Positions 672-6,247 of a stretch of DNA of 6,247 nucleotides are shown here, piece by piece (the first letter of the stretch is position 1; every line of letters starts with the position of its first letter). Source of the DNA: Desulfuromonas sp. SDB (GTDB lineage Bacteria; SDB-A). Where the stretch lies: the NCBI GenBank assembly GCA_001412365.1, contig LKUE01000330.1, positions 1 to 6,247 of the forward strand, written 5' to 3'. A model generated the notes under the pieces. It had not been told where the DNA came from. It ran no database searches and saw only the letters and a list, made by a program, of their open reading frames with translations. Position numbers and translations under genes: made by a program.

Positions 672-3600
672 TTATACATTAAAATATTTTAAACGCCTAA
701 TATCAAAAGCCTTAATTGTTCCTTCTAATATTTTTGAAGCGAATTCGTTAATATTAGGATTTTCGATAGCACCAGATTCAAAATCAACTTTATTTTTATT
801 TTTTTTATCAATACTTACATATATCAACTGTTCAGAATCACCAACGATTGCTAAATTAGGATTATGTGTTACTAATATTACTTGACGTCTTTTTTTAGTT
901 TGTTTTATGAAATGAACTAATATTTTATATATGCTCTCATTATCTAAATTTTCTTCTGGTTGATCAATGATTAGTGGGATGTTGTCTTTATCTAACATTA
1001 GATAAAATACAATAAGCATAGCACCCTTCTCACCAGGAGATAATTCTGTTATATATTTATCCCCAAGTTTTAATTCATATGAAGGTTCAAGGTAGTCAAT
1101 TGAAAATATAAAATTGTAAAAATCTAAATTTATTTCACTGTTAACTTGCTCATTTATATATCTTCGTTCATTATGATAACCTTGCCTTTTATCATACTCC
1201 AAATTCTCTATTAATTCTTTTAAAACTTCTTCTAAAGTGTCATTTTTCTGAAAATTTTTATTTTCAACAATTAGTTTAATCCTTTGTTTACCTTGGTCTT
1301 TTTGATAAAATGATCCCATTTTATTTTGATTAATAAAATAAAGAAATTTATCACTAAAATTAGATTTTAATTTTAGATCAACATCAATATTTATTTCATA
1401 ATCTTTTAAAATTCCTTTATAAGATTTAATTTCTGAATCCACTGATCCTTTTAGTTTATTGTAAATATTTACCAGTTCTAACTTTTTGCTTAATATCTCT
1501 ACAGTTTTATCTAATCTTTTTTTTCTTAAATTTGAAATTTCATTATTCAATCGTTCTTCTATATATTTTATTTGTGCATTATACCATTTAATTGTTTTTA
1601 GTTCTGTTTCATTACCTTCTATAGTAGATTTTTCTTTTTCCCACGTTTTTAATTTTTCTTTGAAATCCTGATATTTTTTATAAGGAGATGAAAGCTCATT
1701 TTTTAAAGTTCTTATTTCTTTATCAAGCTTTTCCAATTGAATTATATAACTATCTTTTTCAAGTATTTTATGTTCTTTTGTTGGATAATTTGATAATATT
1801 TTCTGCTTAGTCAAAAGTTGCTTCGTAATTTTTGAATGTTCTTTCTTCTTTTTATCAATTTTATTTTCTAATTGGATCAAGTTGAATTGATATTGAAATA
1901 ATTGCTCAATGTCTATTGAATATTTTTTTAGATTTTCTTTTTTCTTGGATAAAAATCTTTTAATTTCATCTTCAAAACGATTAAAATCCTCTTTAATATT
2001 TGTTAGTTCTTCAATCTCTTGATTTAGGATAATTAATTTCTCTTTTTTATCAGAGATAATCTTTTCTAATTCATCTTTGTTTTTGTTTTTCTCATCAAGT
2101 TTTTTTGTAATTTCTTCATTATGATCTTTTGTAGATTCATCTAAATCAGGATTTTTTACTTCTTGTGGTTTTATTTTTTGATGTTCTTCTAATTCTTTCT
2201 TTTTTATTTTAAGCTCTTTCTCCAATTTTTCTTTGAAAGTTGGATGTGCTTTATTTTCAAGCTCAATTAATTGAATATTAATATTGTTTATTTCTTTCTC
2301 TATTAATTCAATATCCTTTTTTATGCTTTCTTTTTTATACTGGATGAGTTCTGAAAAAGAATTTCTGCCTAATTTTTCTTCATCTGGTAAGTATGAAAAA
2401 ACAATATCTTCTAAAGTCTTTTCAAACTCATAACTTTCAAGATTATTTGTTAATTTTTCAAAAAAACTTTGTGGTAAATATCTGACTCGTTCTGGTGCAT
2501 TAAAATCGGTAGAATCGGAAAGGTATCTTGTAACAGTATCTCCATCTGCCCATTCAAGAGTTGCTTTAAAATTTTTCGCTAATCCATCTTTTAAAAAGCG
2601 TTCTCTATTTAAAAATGAGAAATCTTCATAATGATGAGAATTACCACATAAACCAATTATATCCGTAAGCGCACTTTTACCATTACCTTTATTGCCAATT
2701 ATTGACACCATACCATAATTCAACATTATTTGAAGGTCTTTAAACCAAATCCCTTTTTCTTCTGTGTAACCATCTATTTTTGTTATAAAAATATTCTTTA
2801 TAAATTTGGTTTTATTGGCTTTGACTCTTTCTAATAATTCAGGGATTTCACCAACAAAAATCCTTTCATCAGGCTCAAACAGGATTTCAGATAATCCTTC
2901 AAATGTTGTGTTTGCTTTAATCCAAGTAAAAGAATTGCCAATTCTATCTTTATTATTTGAAGAAGAAAAATAATGTGCATCACTACAATCTAATAATAAA
3001 TCCTTGACTTCCTGCTCTTTAAGTTTTCTTTTTGCAGTTGCCCATTTTTCAGGTGATTCTGAAGCGGTAAATATAATATTTGCCTTATTAATAATACTCT
3101 TTTTGGTTGCAATCGAATTATCTGACCATTTAAGTTTGTCCCACTCTGTTTTTCCAATAGCAATTAAGTATTTATCTTTAAAAATGTCTCGATTTAATAG
3201 TTCAAAAATTTTATCTTCCTTTACGTTTAAATTATTGAATCCTTCTTCTATATCAGAACCATATTTATACAACTCTTTTAGAGGAACAGTTTCTTTAATT
3301 TTCTTACCAAGTTCTGCAATACTTTCTTTTGTAATTGCTCTGTTCCATTCAGAGCCGCCTTTTTCAAGAGTATAAGATTGCTCTAATCCATTTAAAAATT
3401 GACTTTGTATTTGTTCAATAGTTAGTTGATTTGAAAAAATTATATGGAGGTTTATTCTTTTTAAATTTCCAAAATCCACTCCTGCAAATTTTTCAATTCT
3501 AAATTCAACAACAGGTAAAATAAGTTCAATCTTTTTTAACCTACCACTTTTTTTATATTCTAAAACCTTTTTATATCCATCTAAAAATAAATAATCATTT

Positions 3601-3749
3601 ATACCAATAGATTTGAATTCTATTGGTAAATTCTCTAAATCAGTAATGAATTTTTCCCAGGTTTCATCATCATTTTTCCCATAATATTGGACAATTGATG
3701 CTGGTGTGTGAATATGCAAATCCCACTTATTCCATTCAGAGCCAACCAT
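672..3749 (-). CDS. PHP-domain/SMC-like ABC ATPase (TrlF-family AAA-like ATPase)
   Basis: This complete 1025-residue protein joins a predicted metal-dependent phosphoesterase (PHP) domain to an SMC/Rad50-type ATPase split by a long coiled coil. The PHP part spans roughly residues 1-300. Candidate metal ligands are H12 and H14 (DLHIHTP), D52 (INDY), E82 (LPVVEFR), H102 (NLHIIF), and D257 and H259 (SDAH). The ATPase N-half has Walker A at 352-359 (GNKGNGKS) and a Q-loop at Q427 (YLPQSFF). Lys/Glu-rich coiled coil with breaks runs from about 465 to 785. The C-half has the signature LSPGEKG at 903-909, Walker B ending in D929 (IPLIIDQPEE), a D-loop-like ENLDN and the switch His H962 (VTHNP). All ATPase motifs are intact. 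The only two cysteines (255, 368) are outside the coil, so there is no Rad50-style zinc hook. The ATG at 3749 is supported by an AGGA box and by the GSEWNKWDLHIHTP start typical of the family. Family members occur in defence islands. The substrate is unknown, and a nuclease triggered by ATPase sensing is inferred. The gene is very AT-rich compared with its neighbours. Confidence 0.95.
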   Translation of the reverse strand: MVGSEWNKWDLHIHTPASIVQYYGKNDDETWEKFITDLENLPIEFKSIGINDYLFLDGYKKVLEYKKSGRLKKIELILPVVEFRIEKFAGVDFGNLKRINLHIIFSNQLTIEQIQSQFLNGLEQSYTLEKGGSEWNRAITKESIAELGKKIKETVPLKELYKYGSDIEEGFNNLNVKEDKIFELLNRDIFKDKYLIAIGKTEWDKLKWSDNSIATKKSIINKANIIFTASESPEKWATAKRKLKEQEVKDLLLDCSDAHYFSSSNNKDRIGNSFTWIKANTTFEGLSEILFEPDERIFVGEIPELLERVKANKTKFIKNIFITKIDGYTEEKGIWFKDLQIMLNYGMVSIIGNKGNGKSALTDIIGLCGNSHHYEDFSFLNRERFLKDGLAKNFKATLEWADGDTVTRYLSDSTDFNAPERVRYLPQSFFEKLTNNLESYEFEKTLEDIVFSYLPDEEKLGRNSFSELIQYKKESIKKDIELIEKEINNINIQLIELENKAHPTFKEKLEKELKIKKKELEEHQKIKPQEVKNPDLDESTKDHNEEITKKLDEKNKNKDELEKIISDKKEKLIILNQEIEELTNIKEDFNRFEDEIKRFLSKKKENLKKYSIDIEQLFQYQFNLIQLENKIDKKKKEHSKITKQLLTKQKILSNYPTKEHKILEKDSYIIQLEKLDKEIRTLKNELSSPYKKYQDFKEKLKTWEKEKSTIEGNETELKTIKWYNAQIKYIEERLNNEISNLRKKRLDKTVEILSKKLELVNIYNKLKGSVDSEIKSYKGILKDYEINIDVDLKLKSNFSDKFLYFINQNKMGSFYQKDQGKQRIKLIVENKNFQKNDTLEEVLKELIENLEYDKRQGYHNERRYINEQVNSEINLDFYNFIFSIDYLEPSYELKLGDKYITELSPGEKGAMLIVFYLMLDKDNIPLIIDQPEENLDNESIYKILVHFIKQTKKRRQVILVTHNPNLAIVGDSEQLIYVSIDKKNKNKVDFESGAIENPNINEFASKILEGTIKAFDIRRLKYFNV

Positions 3750-3755
3750 AGTTTT

Positions 3756-3759
3756 TCCT
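3756..3759 (-). promoter_or_regulatory. Ribosome binding site of the PHP-ATPase gene
   Basis: AGGA on the minus strand, within 'taggaaaaact', ends six bases before the ATG at 3749 and supports that start. The presence of its own site, with a 155-base gap after the methyltransferase stop, means translation is not coupled to the upstream gene. No convincing -35/-10 pair could be chosen in the AT-rich leader at 3760-3805. Confidence 0.65.
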
Positions 3760-3807
3760 ATTAAAGATTTGATTAATAATTTATTGGCATATATTTAAAA
3801 CATAATA

Positions 3808-3872
3808 CTGCAGCTCATCGGCAGCAATGGAACGCAACGGAAATGCCAGTCCGAGTTGACGCGGTTGTTATA
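3808..3872 (+). repeat. attC-like (VCR-type) half element between the methyltransferase and PHP-ATPase genes
   Basis: Read on the minus strand from 3872, this starts TATAACAACCGCGTCAACT and continues through GGACTGGCA. This has the look of the left simple site of a Vibrio-type integron attC (TATAACAA, then G-C-TCAA-, then GGACTG). It begins 33 bases after the methyltransferase stop codon, the usual place for attC in a cassette. The segment continues to CTGCAG at 3808-3813, where ACTG can pair with CAGT. The expected complementary arm ending in GTTATA or GTTRRRY is absent beyond that, where AT-rich sequence begins. It is GC-rich compared with the AT-rich leader on its left. It could be a truncated attC or another dispersed intergenic repeat. 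The match is from memory of attC sequences, not from a search. Confidence 0.4.
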
Positions 3873-3904
3873 TCGCTTTTTTTTTATTACATGCCCATGG
3901 CGAT

Positions 3905-6247
3905 CTATTTTATTTCCCCTTCCACAATCTTGATCTCTTCCTCGGTCAGGCCGTAGAGTTTATAGACCAGCTGGTCGATTTGTTGTTCATATTCCTTTAC
4001 CTGTGACTGTTTGACGGGGTTTTGGAGGTAATCATCAGCTTTGGTGATGGTGATTATTTTGTTGACAAGTTCTATAATAATATTTTGCTCACTTTTTGAA
4101 ATTTGTTTAATAGGAATCTTACCTAAATAATAACTATCGAAATGCATTGTACGTATTGCACAAGCATATATAAATTTATATGTATACCAATTAACTAACC
4201 GAGAATTAAGTAAAGCTAAAATGTAACAAATAAAATAATTATTATCTGTTATAAATGTATTATTTATAGTATCTACACTAAGAACATTACCAAATACATC
4301 AACTGAAGATGTAATTTTAATATGTGGTTTTGGATTCTCTATGTGTGCAATAATATTTTGTGATAATATTTTTGGTTTCAATAGTTTAGTTGCCTTTTTA
4401 TAATTTAAAATAGTTTCTTCGTTTATATAACCTTTTACTCCAGTTACAGAATAACGCTGAAGCTCTTTCCCTCCTATTACAGGAATATCTCCCTTTTCTT
4501 TTAGCTTTCTTTGTAAAGGTAATCCTCGCATTGTAAAACTAACATCTTTAAGGAAAATAGTTTCATTTAATAATTTTTCAGACAATTTAATATCAATTTC
4601 AGACACATCACATAACCATGATTCATATTTGCCTATTAACTCTGTGGGAATTTCAGCGCGTTTGATAAACACTCCTTCGTCAAACTTAATTGCCTGATAT
4701 TTACTAATTTTTTGTGAGATGTGAAAAACAAAAACAACCTGCTCCAATAATACATTCTCAAATCCTTTTTCAATGTCAACAATAGTCGAAGTATTTTCAC
4801 ACAATGCTTTTACTAATGATAACCATTTTTCAGAGAATAATAAGGACTTAGGAACTATAAATGTAACGATTCCATTTTTATTTATAAATTTATTTTTGGC
4901 AAAATCAATAAAAATAGCCGCACTGTTTGAGTTGCTTGTATCTTTACATTGCTTCATAATTTTAGCTAACTGAATTTTAGGTATATCAGCTCCATACGGC
5001 GGATTGGCAATCACCACATCAAACCCGCCCTTGTTATGAAACACTTCCGAGAAATAGACCTCAAAATCAAATTCTCTATGTCCTTTGGTAATCCGGCTGA
5101 TCAGGTCATCAATCTGCTTTTTATATTCCTGCTTTATGGTTGGATTGGTCTCATTAAAATACAAGGGCTTCAGTTTTTCCATGTCACTAAAAATCTGATG
5201 GTTAAACAGGTTTTTCTCCACACCCATCAATGAATTGCCACAGACAATTTTATAATCCAGATTGGGCAGAGGCTTGATGTTCTTTATGTCCTCTTCCTCT
5301 ACTATGAGGGAGAGCCACAGCCGCAGTTTGGCGATCTCCACCGCGCCGGGGTCGATGTCCACACCGTACAGGGAATGCTCGATGCAGCAGCGCTTGAATT
5401 CATAATCATTCCGTGTATGGTCATTTAAAAATACCGAGATCACATTTCTGGCGCGCACGATTTCGTTCATCATGCCCACCGGAAATGCGCCGGATCCCAC
5501 TGCAGGGTCGCAGACCGTGATGTCTTCCAGCCAGTTATCTATGGAGGCAGCGTTTTCCCGGATGCTATCGGAGAGCAGAGCGTCGTATCCCGTGGATTTC
5601 TGGATACCCTTTTGAATTTTTTCTTGTTTGATGATGGCGGTGGCTTCATGCTCGGTGATCAGTTCCCCGACTTCAATCAGGTCTTCGATGTCTTGTTTTT
5701 GTATCTTATCCGATAGTCCGGCTTCCTCGGCCTGGGTGTAGAGGTAATTGATCAAACTCTGTTTGCACATATAGTGCACGATTTCCCGGGGGGTATAATA
5801 AACGCCAAATTTTTTGTTAAATTTATTTTCTTCACCCTTCTTTCCGCTCTTTAGCGCTTTGGTGAATTTATCGAAATTATCCGGCCGGATGGCGTTGAAT
5901 TTCTCATAAGCCTTGCCCAGCAGTTCCGGGTCAATAGCCACTTCCTTTTCCAGAGGCTCATCTTCGCGCACGGTAAAGTTGTAACGGTCAAACACATCCA
6001 AAATGCCGTCGCCAGTATCGCCTTCTTTGGTCTTGCGGGAATTGGAAAACAGGCCATCAGGCAGATTGATATCGGTAGGCACCCAGTCATAATTACCGAT
6101 AGGATCGAACAATCCACCGTTTAAGAACGGGATTTTGCAGTTGAAGTGGCTGTAATAGTGATCAACATGGCTGCGATCTATGCGCAGGGCTTCGTAAAAA
6201 AGCGGCTCCAGGATATCGTTGAAAAAATTGTCATAGCCACTGTGTTT
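3905..6247 (-). CDS. Eco57I-family type IIG-like restriction-modification methyltransferase (5' end beyond window)
   Basis: The frame is open at the right edge and ends at a TAG at 3905, giving 780 visible residues. It is predicted to transfer a methyl group from S-adenosylmethionine to adenine N6 in DNA. Family relatives join methylation, target recognition and often cleavage in one polypeptide of about 1000 residues or more, so roughly 250-300 N-terminal residues are probably missing. In order from the first visible codon: NFFNDILEPLFYEAL (7-21), FLNGGLF (41-47), YYTPREIVHYM (150-160), SAM-binding motif I DPAVGSGAF (247-255), VDIDP (295-299) and catalytic motif IV NPPYG (415-419). A predicted target-recognition region follows (about 470-725), containing the TaqI-like LLNSRLVNWY near 679-688. 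A conserved C-terminal block (about 725-780) contains VKEYEQQIDQLVYKLYGLTEEEI. The TTG at 6112 is not the real start, because it lies inside the conserved FLNGGLF. Composition changes sharply inside the gene. The fused nuclease is not visible here, so a methyltransferase-only role, for example in a multi-gene system, remains possible. Confidence 0.94.
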   Translation of the reverse strand, partial: KHSGYDNFFNDILEPLFYEALRIDRSHVDHYYSHFNCKIPFLNGGLFDPIGNYDWVPTDINLPDGLFSNSRKTKEGDTGDGILDVFDRYNFTVREDEPLEKEVAIDPELLGKAYEKFNAIRPDNFDKFTKALKSGKKGEENKFNKKFGVYYTPREIVHYMCKQSLINYLYTQAEEAGLSDKIQKQDIEDLIEVGELITEHEATAIIKQEKIQKGIQKSTGYDALLSDSIRENAASIDNWLEDITVCDPAVGSGAFPVGMMNEIVRARNVISVFLNDHTRNDYEFKRCCIEHSLYGVDIDPGAVEIAKLRLWLSLIVEEEDIKNIKPLPNLDYKIVCGNSLMGVEKNLFNHQIFSDMEKLKPLYFNETNPTIKQEYKKQIDDLISRITKGHREFDFEVYFSEVFHNKGGFDVVIANPPYGADIPKIQLAKIMKQCKDTSNSNSAAIFIDFAKNKFINKNGIVTFIVPKSLLFSEKWLSLVKALCENTSTIVDIEKGFENVLLEQVVFVFHISQKISKYQAIKFDEGVFIKRAEIPTELIGKYESWLCDVSEIDIKLSEKLLNETIFLKDVSFTMRGLPLQRKLKEKGDIPVIGGKELQRYSVTGVKGYINEETILNYKKATKLLKPKILSQNIIAHIENPKPHIKITSSVDVFGNVLSVDTINNTFITDNNYFICYILALLNSRLVNWYTYKFIYACAIRTMHFDSYYLGKIPIKQISKSEQNIIIELVNKIITITKADDYLQNPVKQSQVKEYEQQIDQLVYKLYGLTEEEIKIVEGEIK
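4066..4990 (-). other. AT-rich target-recognition segment of the methyltransferase gene (probable exchanged module)
   Basis: This part of the methyltransferase gene runs from just after the catalytic NPPYG motif to just before the conserved C-terminal block. Hand counts of G+C per 60 bases are 37 at 5341-5400, 29 at 4981-5040, 18 at 4921-4980, 13 at 4861-4920, 10 at 4201-4260, 14 at 4081-4140, 19 at 4021-4080 and 26 at 3961-4020. The low stretch coincides with the region that in type IIG enzymes carries DNA target recognition. The reading frame stays intact across both edges. The pattern fits replacement of the specificity module by recombination between conserved flanks. The edges are good to a few tens of bases only. 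Confidence 0.6.

Follow-up and report, generated by a model that had tools for sequence, protein, structure and literature searches.

Restriction-modification (R-M) systems are commonly taken as complete units. What, then, might a large ATPase gene be doing directly behind the methylase gene of one of them? The window analysed here, a stretch of 6,247 nucleotides from Desulfuromonas sp. SDB, is a whole contig (C330) of a 3.14-Mb genome assembled in 433 contigs, which has few close relatives in our sample. Its minus strand, on which all the window features given below lie, holds the 3′ part of a methylase gene (3905-6247), a 155-base spacer (3750-3904), the gene of a TrlF-family protein (672-3749) and the start of a gene for a GAF-domain protein (1-417). 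The TrlF gene has an AGGA 6 nt ahead of its ATG. A terminator on the strand of the genes was sought in the spacer and none was found, and the spacer RNA folds no better than shuffled sequences (z −0.07). As to the GAF-domain gene, it starts 254 bases behind TrlF, is truncated at the contig end and shows no sign of belonging to the system. The recurrence of TrlF genes in unrelated R-M operons, described below, suggests that TrlF is a widespread candidate back-up weapon against phages.

The earlier note on this DNA had described the TrlF gene product as an intact ABC/SMC-type ATPase with a predicted PHP phosphoesterase at its N-terminus, and both parts of that description held. Judged by its sequence, the 1,025-residue protein is a member of the TrlF family (TrlF_fam_ATP, TrlF family AAA-like ATPase; NCBIfam NF045780), since it matches this profile over its full length (positions 2-943 of 944; 628.2 bits against a cut-off of 350; 3.9e-188). 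It stays below threshold with the profile of the Spaf_1101 family (NF045781, 98.5 bits, cut-off 475) and with that of Ppl (NF042955, 78.3 bits, cut-off 1000), and is therefore not a Ppl. The full-length AlphaFold model (pLDDT 83.8) has an SMC/Rad50-type head and long coiled-coil arms. The best compact structural match of the head is 5h68 (Z 18.9, 3.4 Å, 257 residues), and the Foldseek matches of the model include Rad50, JetABC, Lamassu and PARIS AriA. The predicted arms (residues 465-784; 1398-2357) lie between the two ATPase halves, according to the secondary structure of the model and to TIGR02168 (SMC), which matches residues 474-757. Because Pfam detects no PHP domain in the protein, structure prediction was needed to find it; phmmer against the PDB returned ABC ATPases only. 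In the full-length fold search SMC proteins fill the matches and the PHP domain is not reached, and residues 1-336 were therefore modelled separately (pLDDT 78.7, pTM 0.81). This second model matches EndoQ and TM0559 (Z 13.7), RNase AM (Z 12.9) and then the PHP domains of PolC and DnaE, the last PHP chain scoring Z 10.2 and the next unrelated fold Z 6.8. On the evidence of the model, the N-terminus (residues 1-300; 2850-3749) is a PHP fold, and no anticodon-nuclease family model of Pfam, NCBIfam or PADLOC matches the protein.

The residues expected of such a protein are largely present. H12, H14, K358 and D929, which had been singled out beforehand as targets for mutation, are all in place, and their conservation was followed in an alignment of 81 TrlFs, that of the window and 80 others. 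Among the canonical PHP site residues, the window protein has H12 and H14 of motif I (H12-I-H14, 3708-3716; HxH in 64 of the 81), D52, the motif III glutamate E82 (3504-3506; E in each of the 78 rows that have a residue at this position) and D257-A-H259 (2973-2981; D in 81/81, H in 54/81), with a tyrosine, Y53, at the place of the motif II histidine, a type of replacement found in 31 aligned rows. H102 (3444-3446) is kept mainly in the clade of the window protein. On the ATPase side we find the Walker A motif GNKGNGKS with K358 (2673-2696; K in 80/81), the ABC signature LSPGE (1029-1043; S and G nearly invariant), the Walker B motif PLIIDQPE, followed by a further E, with D929 (954-977; D in 78/78) and, in the alignment, a nearly invariant H-loop, T961-H962-N963 (861-869).

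What does this protein stand next to? An Eco57I methyltransferase on the same strand, 155 bases away, had been proposed, and this holds, but the R-M unit turns out to be larger. The window is a whole contig with one end within the methylase gene, and the ORF therefore covers only the C-terminal 780 residues of the enzyme. It contains an Eco57I methylase domain (4778-5374; PF07669, 6.5e-26) with the motifs DPAVGSG and NPPY, a TaqI-like target-recognition domain (4109-4483; PF12950, TaqI_C, 1.3e-8) and a match to the PADLOC profile REase_MTase_IIG (2.2e-188). Positions 1-288 of profile PDLC03596 end on another contig, C223, and positions 283 onward start in the window; the two contig ends share 21 identical bases as an exact overlap, and this profile has no further match anywhere in the genome. 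Joined across C223 and the window, the methylase is 1,083 residues long. Upstream on C223, on the same strand, lie a 1,073-residue PLD-SNF2 helicase (PLDc_2, SNF2, Helicase_C) and a 451-residue SLFN_AlbA_2/HATPase_c_4 protein, the latter two genes upstream of TrlF. This gene order points to a probable operon, in which co-transcription is inferred, of helicase, AlbA_2/HATPase gene, IIG-like methylase and, last, TrlF. At the N-terminus of the methylase the PD-(D/E)XK triad is unclear, the expected acidic residue not being seen (LDILVITLKK), and the helicase keeps the PLD nuclease motifs HxK and GSSN; the helicase may therefore be the cutting subunit, so that the label type IIG enzyme describes the methylase only. 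Base composition differs along the locus: the target-recognition half of the methylase gene (4081-4950), including the domain itself, has about 27% GC and the remaining gene about 40-46%, contig C223 has 40% and TrlF 26%. This contrast suggests a recombinational swap of the recognition domain and an outside origin of TrlF.

Forty-nine of the 386 sampled genomes encode the helicase, and the helicase and IIG-like methylase (9041-13581 of the C223 locus, L224) form a widespread pair behind which the genes vary (TrlF, a TIR protein, others). The pair occurs without TrlF at five loci (L225, L226, L229, L230, L231), whereas the order helicase-methylase-TrlF is found again in L152 and in a viral contig (L105). 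On a Parabacteroides plasmid (L226, 14660-18886) the pair is followed by a 304-residue protein, a TIR-domain protein and an AAA protein instead of TrlF. We would thus regard the position behind the pair as an accessory slot. Literature searches gave nothing direct on the combination of a PLD helicase and a type IIG methylase. Further upstream of the helicase, on the same strand (6432-8870 of L224), are PDC-S32-like and NucC/DUF6602-like genes, and the locus therefore looks like a defence island.

Our preferred reading, to which we give a probability of roughly 0.45, is that TrlF may be an autonomous anti-phage PHP nuclease, held by a Rad50/SMC-type ATPase and employed by R-M systems as a portable accessory. 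The PHP site would cut nucleic acid, and the ATPase would hold this nuclease in check and gate it on an infection signal. The trigger would be a signal arising from, or alongside, any R-M system; the simplest candidates, in line with the report on Ppl (PMC12904381), are free DNA ends or a disturbance of nucleotide pools. The outcome would be phage DNA degradation or growth arrest, a back-up for the R-M enzyme that would require no contact between the two. DNA ends would arise from type I, II and III restriction; BREX-embedded copies fit less simply. This reading is supported by the PHP fold, the intact site residues, the SMC/Rad50 head, the gene order across two contigs, the repeated independent association with R-M genes, the plasmid copies that occur alone or with TrlG, and the biochemistry of Ppl. 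Ppl is the nearest tested analogue by architecture: it likewise has an N-terminal PHP domain and a C-terminal SMC-like ATPase (PADLOC Ppl), the two ATPase halves are homologous (3.3e-22, residues 253-1018 of the window protein), and it is reported to act as a single-gene 3′-5′ ssDNA exonuclease, NTP-restrained and activated by nucleotide depletion and 3′ ends (PMC12904381). TrlF and its Ppl-like relatives together occur on more than 1000 plasmid records. Our literature searches yielded no paper dealing directly with TrlF function or with anti-phage proteins that combine PHP and SMC parts, and no report of phage protection by any TrlF.

Is the neighbourhood of the window a chance arrangement? 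Two samples of TrlF loci were surveyed. Sample 1 comprised 44 loci, 30 from 386 genomes (L071-L100), about 8% of which have TrlF, and 14 from genome contigs; sample 2 had 40 loci, of which 37 came from a Bacteroidota draw, used since a second random sample around genome G377 gave mostly the same genomes, and 3 from relatives of G377; 40 regions of these sample 2 genomes served as controls. R-M genes were found with seeds from sample 1 and the K-12 hsd genes, and a neighbour was defined as a gene on the same strand within 350 bases. The seeds, the 350-base limit and the manual reading of operons were chosen while viewing the data, and sample 2 is the cleaner test because sample 1 supplied the seeds. 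In sample 2, R-M genes were present in 9/40 TrlF regions and 1/40 control regions (p 0.014), and a same-strand adjacent R-M gene accompanied 6/40 TrlFs compared with 4/255 of the remaining ORFs in those regions (p 0.0006) and 0/325 ORFs of the control regions. The corresponding adjacency in sample 1 was 8/44 against 14/278 (p 0.005). Read together with PADLOC, operonic linkage extends to 19 of the 84 other TrlF loci, in addition to the window, with partners of types I, II/IIG and III, BREX and Hma (sample 1: L006, L010, L072, L075, L081, L084, L085, L086, L088, L094, L099; sample 2: L118, L139, L140, L143, L144, L148, L151, L152). The enrichment of homologues near R-M genes, which had been set beforehand as the check on the proposed link, is thus borne out, as is recurrent linkage to Eco57I-type genes, the IIG-TrlF order being found again in L143, L144, L152 and L105.

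In several operons TrlF is embedded between R-M genes: HsdM-TrlF-HsdS (L006) and HsdS-TrlF-HsdR (L148, L151) in type I systems, Mod-TrlF-TrlG-Res (L139), PglX-TrlF-TrlG-PglZ-like-BrxL-like (L086), PglXI-TrlF-BrxHI (L081) and PglXI-TrlF-TrlG-BrxHI (L072). The PglZ-like gene of L086 is not called by PF08665 (PglZ), a model that mostly catches proteins of about 520 residues, probably PorX-like regulators. On a viral contig (L101, 2576-11069) TrlF is divergent from hsdR-hsdM-hsdS, with about 220 bases between them. In the part of the RptR paper concerned with it, a pair of an RNA-binding protein and an AAA-like ATPase, of unknown function according to the authors, lies between hsdS and hsdR in four genomes (PMC12255303); this is very likely a TrlG-TrlF pair in an R-M operon. 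That part of the paper describes the pair in a type I context and in RptR-linked cases only, with no other R-M types, PHP site or phylogeny of the pair.

A challenge to any functional coupling is that TrlF might be a pure hitchhiker, a stand-alone defence gene landing in insertion-tolerant slots of R-M operons within defence islands. Eight of 29 TrlFs lie within 10 kb of a Pfam methylase, where 1.8 are expected by chance (p 0.0006), but AbiEii, a generic island gene, also clusters near methylases (6/51), and the difference between the two is not significant (p 0.12) in a control whose size does not suffice to tell coupling from island clustering; island clustering therefore explains part of the proximity. 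In the same direction, R-M genes are absent beside the five plasmid TrlFs that were read closely, plasmid TrlFs standing alone or with TrlG. DarTG2 of the RRDM island, too, is similarly embedded as a second defence module within a type I R-M operon, although it is an ADP-ribosylating toxin-antitoxin pair and a protein unrelated to TrlF (PMC12255303). Against the hitchhiker, on the other hand, count operonic positions that overlap the genes on both sides (L006, L148), which go beyond mere proximity, the rarity of R-M adjacency among the other and the control ORFs, and partner types that differ between clades. We consider uncoupled hitchhiking possible but doubtful. Some plasmid TrlFs (L196, L197, L198) adjoin Abi-family genes, ccdAB or colicin genes.

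How did TrlF come to have such different partners? An approximate FastTree phylogeny of the 81 TrlFs, with long branches flagged, separates clade A, whose 40 rows include the window and a single case with TrlG, from clade B, whose 41 rows have most of the TrlG pairs. R-M linkage requires 19 changes for 19 linked rows, and types I, IIG, III and BREX each require as many changes as they have rows, so that, as far as this tree can tell, nearly every pairing of TrlF with an R-M system would be a separate event. If TrlF has indeed been taken up by type I, IIG, III, BREX and Hma operons at least 12 separate times, R-M operons would carry a shared accessory slot, TrlF would be its standard filler, and an already named family would gain a concrete, testable role. 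In clade A all 10 linked rows have type I or II/IIG partners, whereas in clade B 8/9 have III, BREX or Hma (p 1e-4), a split that is a lead only because the two samples differ in taxonomy. A variant of the preferred reading builds on it: TrlF would be a general back-up nuclease that any R-M type can adopt, answering a common signal such as DNA ends or failed restriction, with clades specialised by partner (I/II without TrlG, III/BREX with TrlG) and with BREX-linked copies able to lose the nuclease site, because BREX, to our knowledge, is not known to cut DNA. We regard this fuller version as rather unlikely.

The same tree bears on the idea, contained in the earlier note, of a second-line role like that of PrrC. 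The R-M linkage behind this idea stands at the family level; we do not favour a guard that one cognate enzyme keeps silent. PrrC, the guard of EcoPrrI (PMC12707154), provides the precedent, its gene lying in a type IC R-M locus and its activation following inhibition of the enzyme (PMC12707154; PMC2610378), and the recurrent embedding of TrlF with 4-bp overlaps (L006, L148, L086) is what one would expect if R-M proteins kept TrlF inactive by contact until a phage inhibits the enzyme. Such contact would need rebuilding each time, however, since there are at least five unrelated partner kinds, almost no inheritance of partners on the tree and, for most TrlFs, including the five closely read plasmid copies, no R-M neighbour. 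Even close relatives differ: the nearest ones of the window protein are L003 and L151, and the partner is IIG in the window and type I in L151, where TrlF lies between hsdS and hsdR, with none found for L003 and L150. The 22 kb of L003 contain no relative of the methylase of the window, and no R-M seed match lies beside its TrlF. We therefore think a contact-based guard unlikely. In common with PrrC and RloC, TrlF couples an ABC ATPase to a putative nuclease, but it differs from them in its PHP domain, in matching no anticodon-nuclease family and in having partners beyond type I.

Site conservation limits what can be said of the family as a whole. In 7 of the 81 TrlFs (L080, L081, L086, L087, L136, L138, L142), of which L081 and L086 are BREX-embedded, QxN replaces HxH, and the site looks catalytically lost as judged from these residues; the seven rows cluster together in the tree and therefore probably reflect one event, not seven. 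Since HxH is lost in some TrlFs, nuclease activity cannot be the function of the whole family. That TrlF is instead an ATP-driven DNA-binding sensor, its PHP fold only binding nucleotide or DNA while the methylase-helicase pair cuts, would suit the QxN group, which has two of the three BREX-embedded copies, and the many copies with a Y53-type replacement, but is very improbable given that all copies in the tree with type I, II/IIG or III linkage keep HxH and that the window protein retains HxH, E, H102 and DxH. The TrlF closest to that of the window (L003, 9197-12307), at 61% identity over the ATPase half, differs at the N-terminus, where QxQ stands for HxH and DxR for DxH; exchange or decay of its PHP part, with the ATPase retained, seems to have taken place.

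Against the autonomous nuclease we count Y53, the QxN rows, the presence of AbiEii near methylases and the behaviour of the family's namesake. The window protein shares the PHP and ABC ATPase layout of the NF045780 family, whose name comes from trlF in the temperature-restriction locus of Photorhabdus. There the TRL operon stops growth at 36 °C, and the mutations selected for temperature tolerance lie in trlG, with none in trlF (PMC7554251). In that operon (trlR-trlF-trlG), trlG (AlbA_2 and HATPase_c_4) lies beside trlF, whereas the window TrlF has no adjacent TrlG and its clade is mostly without one. This does not bear on membership of the TrlF family, because only 26 of the 81 TrlFs have TrlG adjacent. 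With PARIS AriA (3.3e-6), Lamassu LmuB (0.0013), JetABC, MukB and Rad50, TrlF shares an SMC/Rad50-type head and coiled coils, while in these proteins no PHP domain is fused and the effectors are others.
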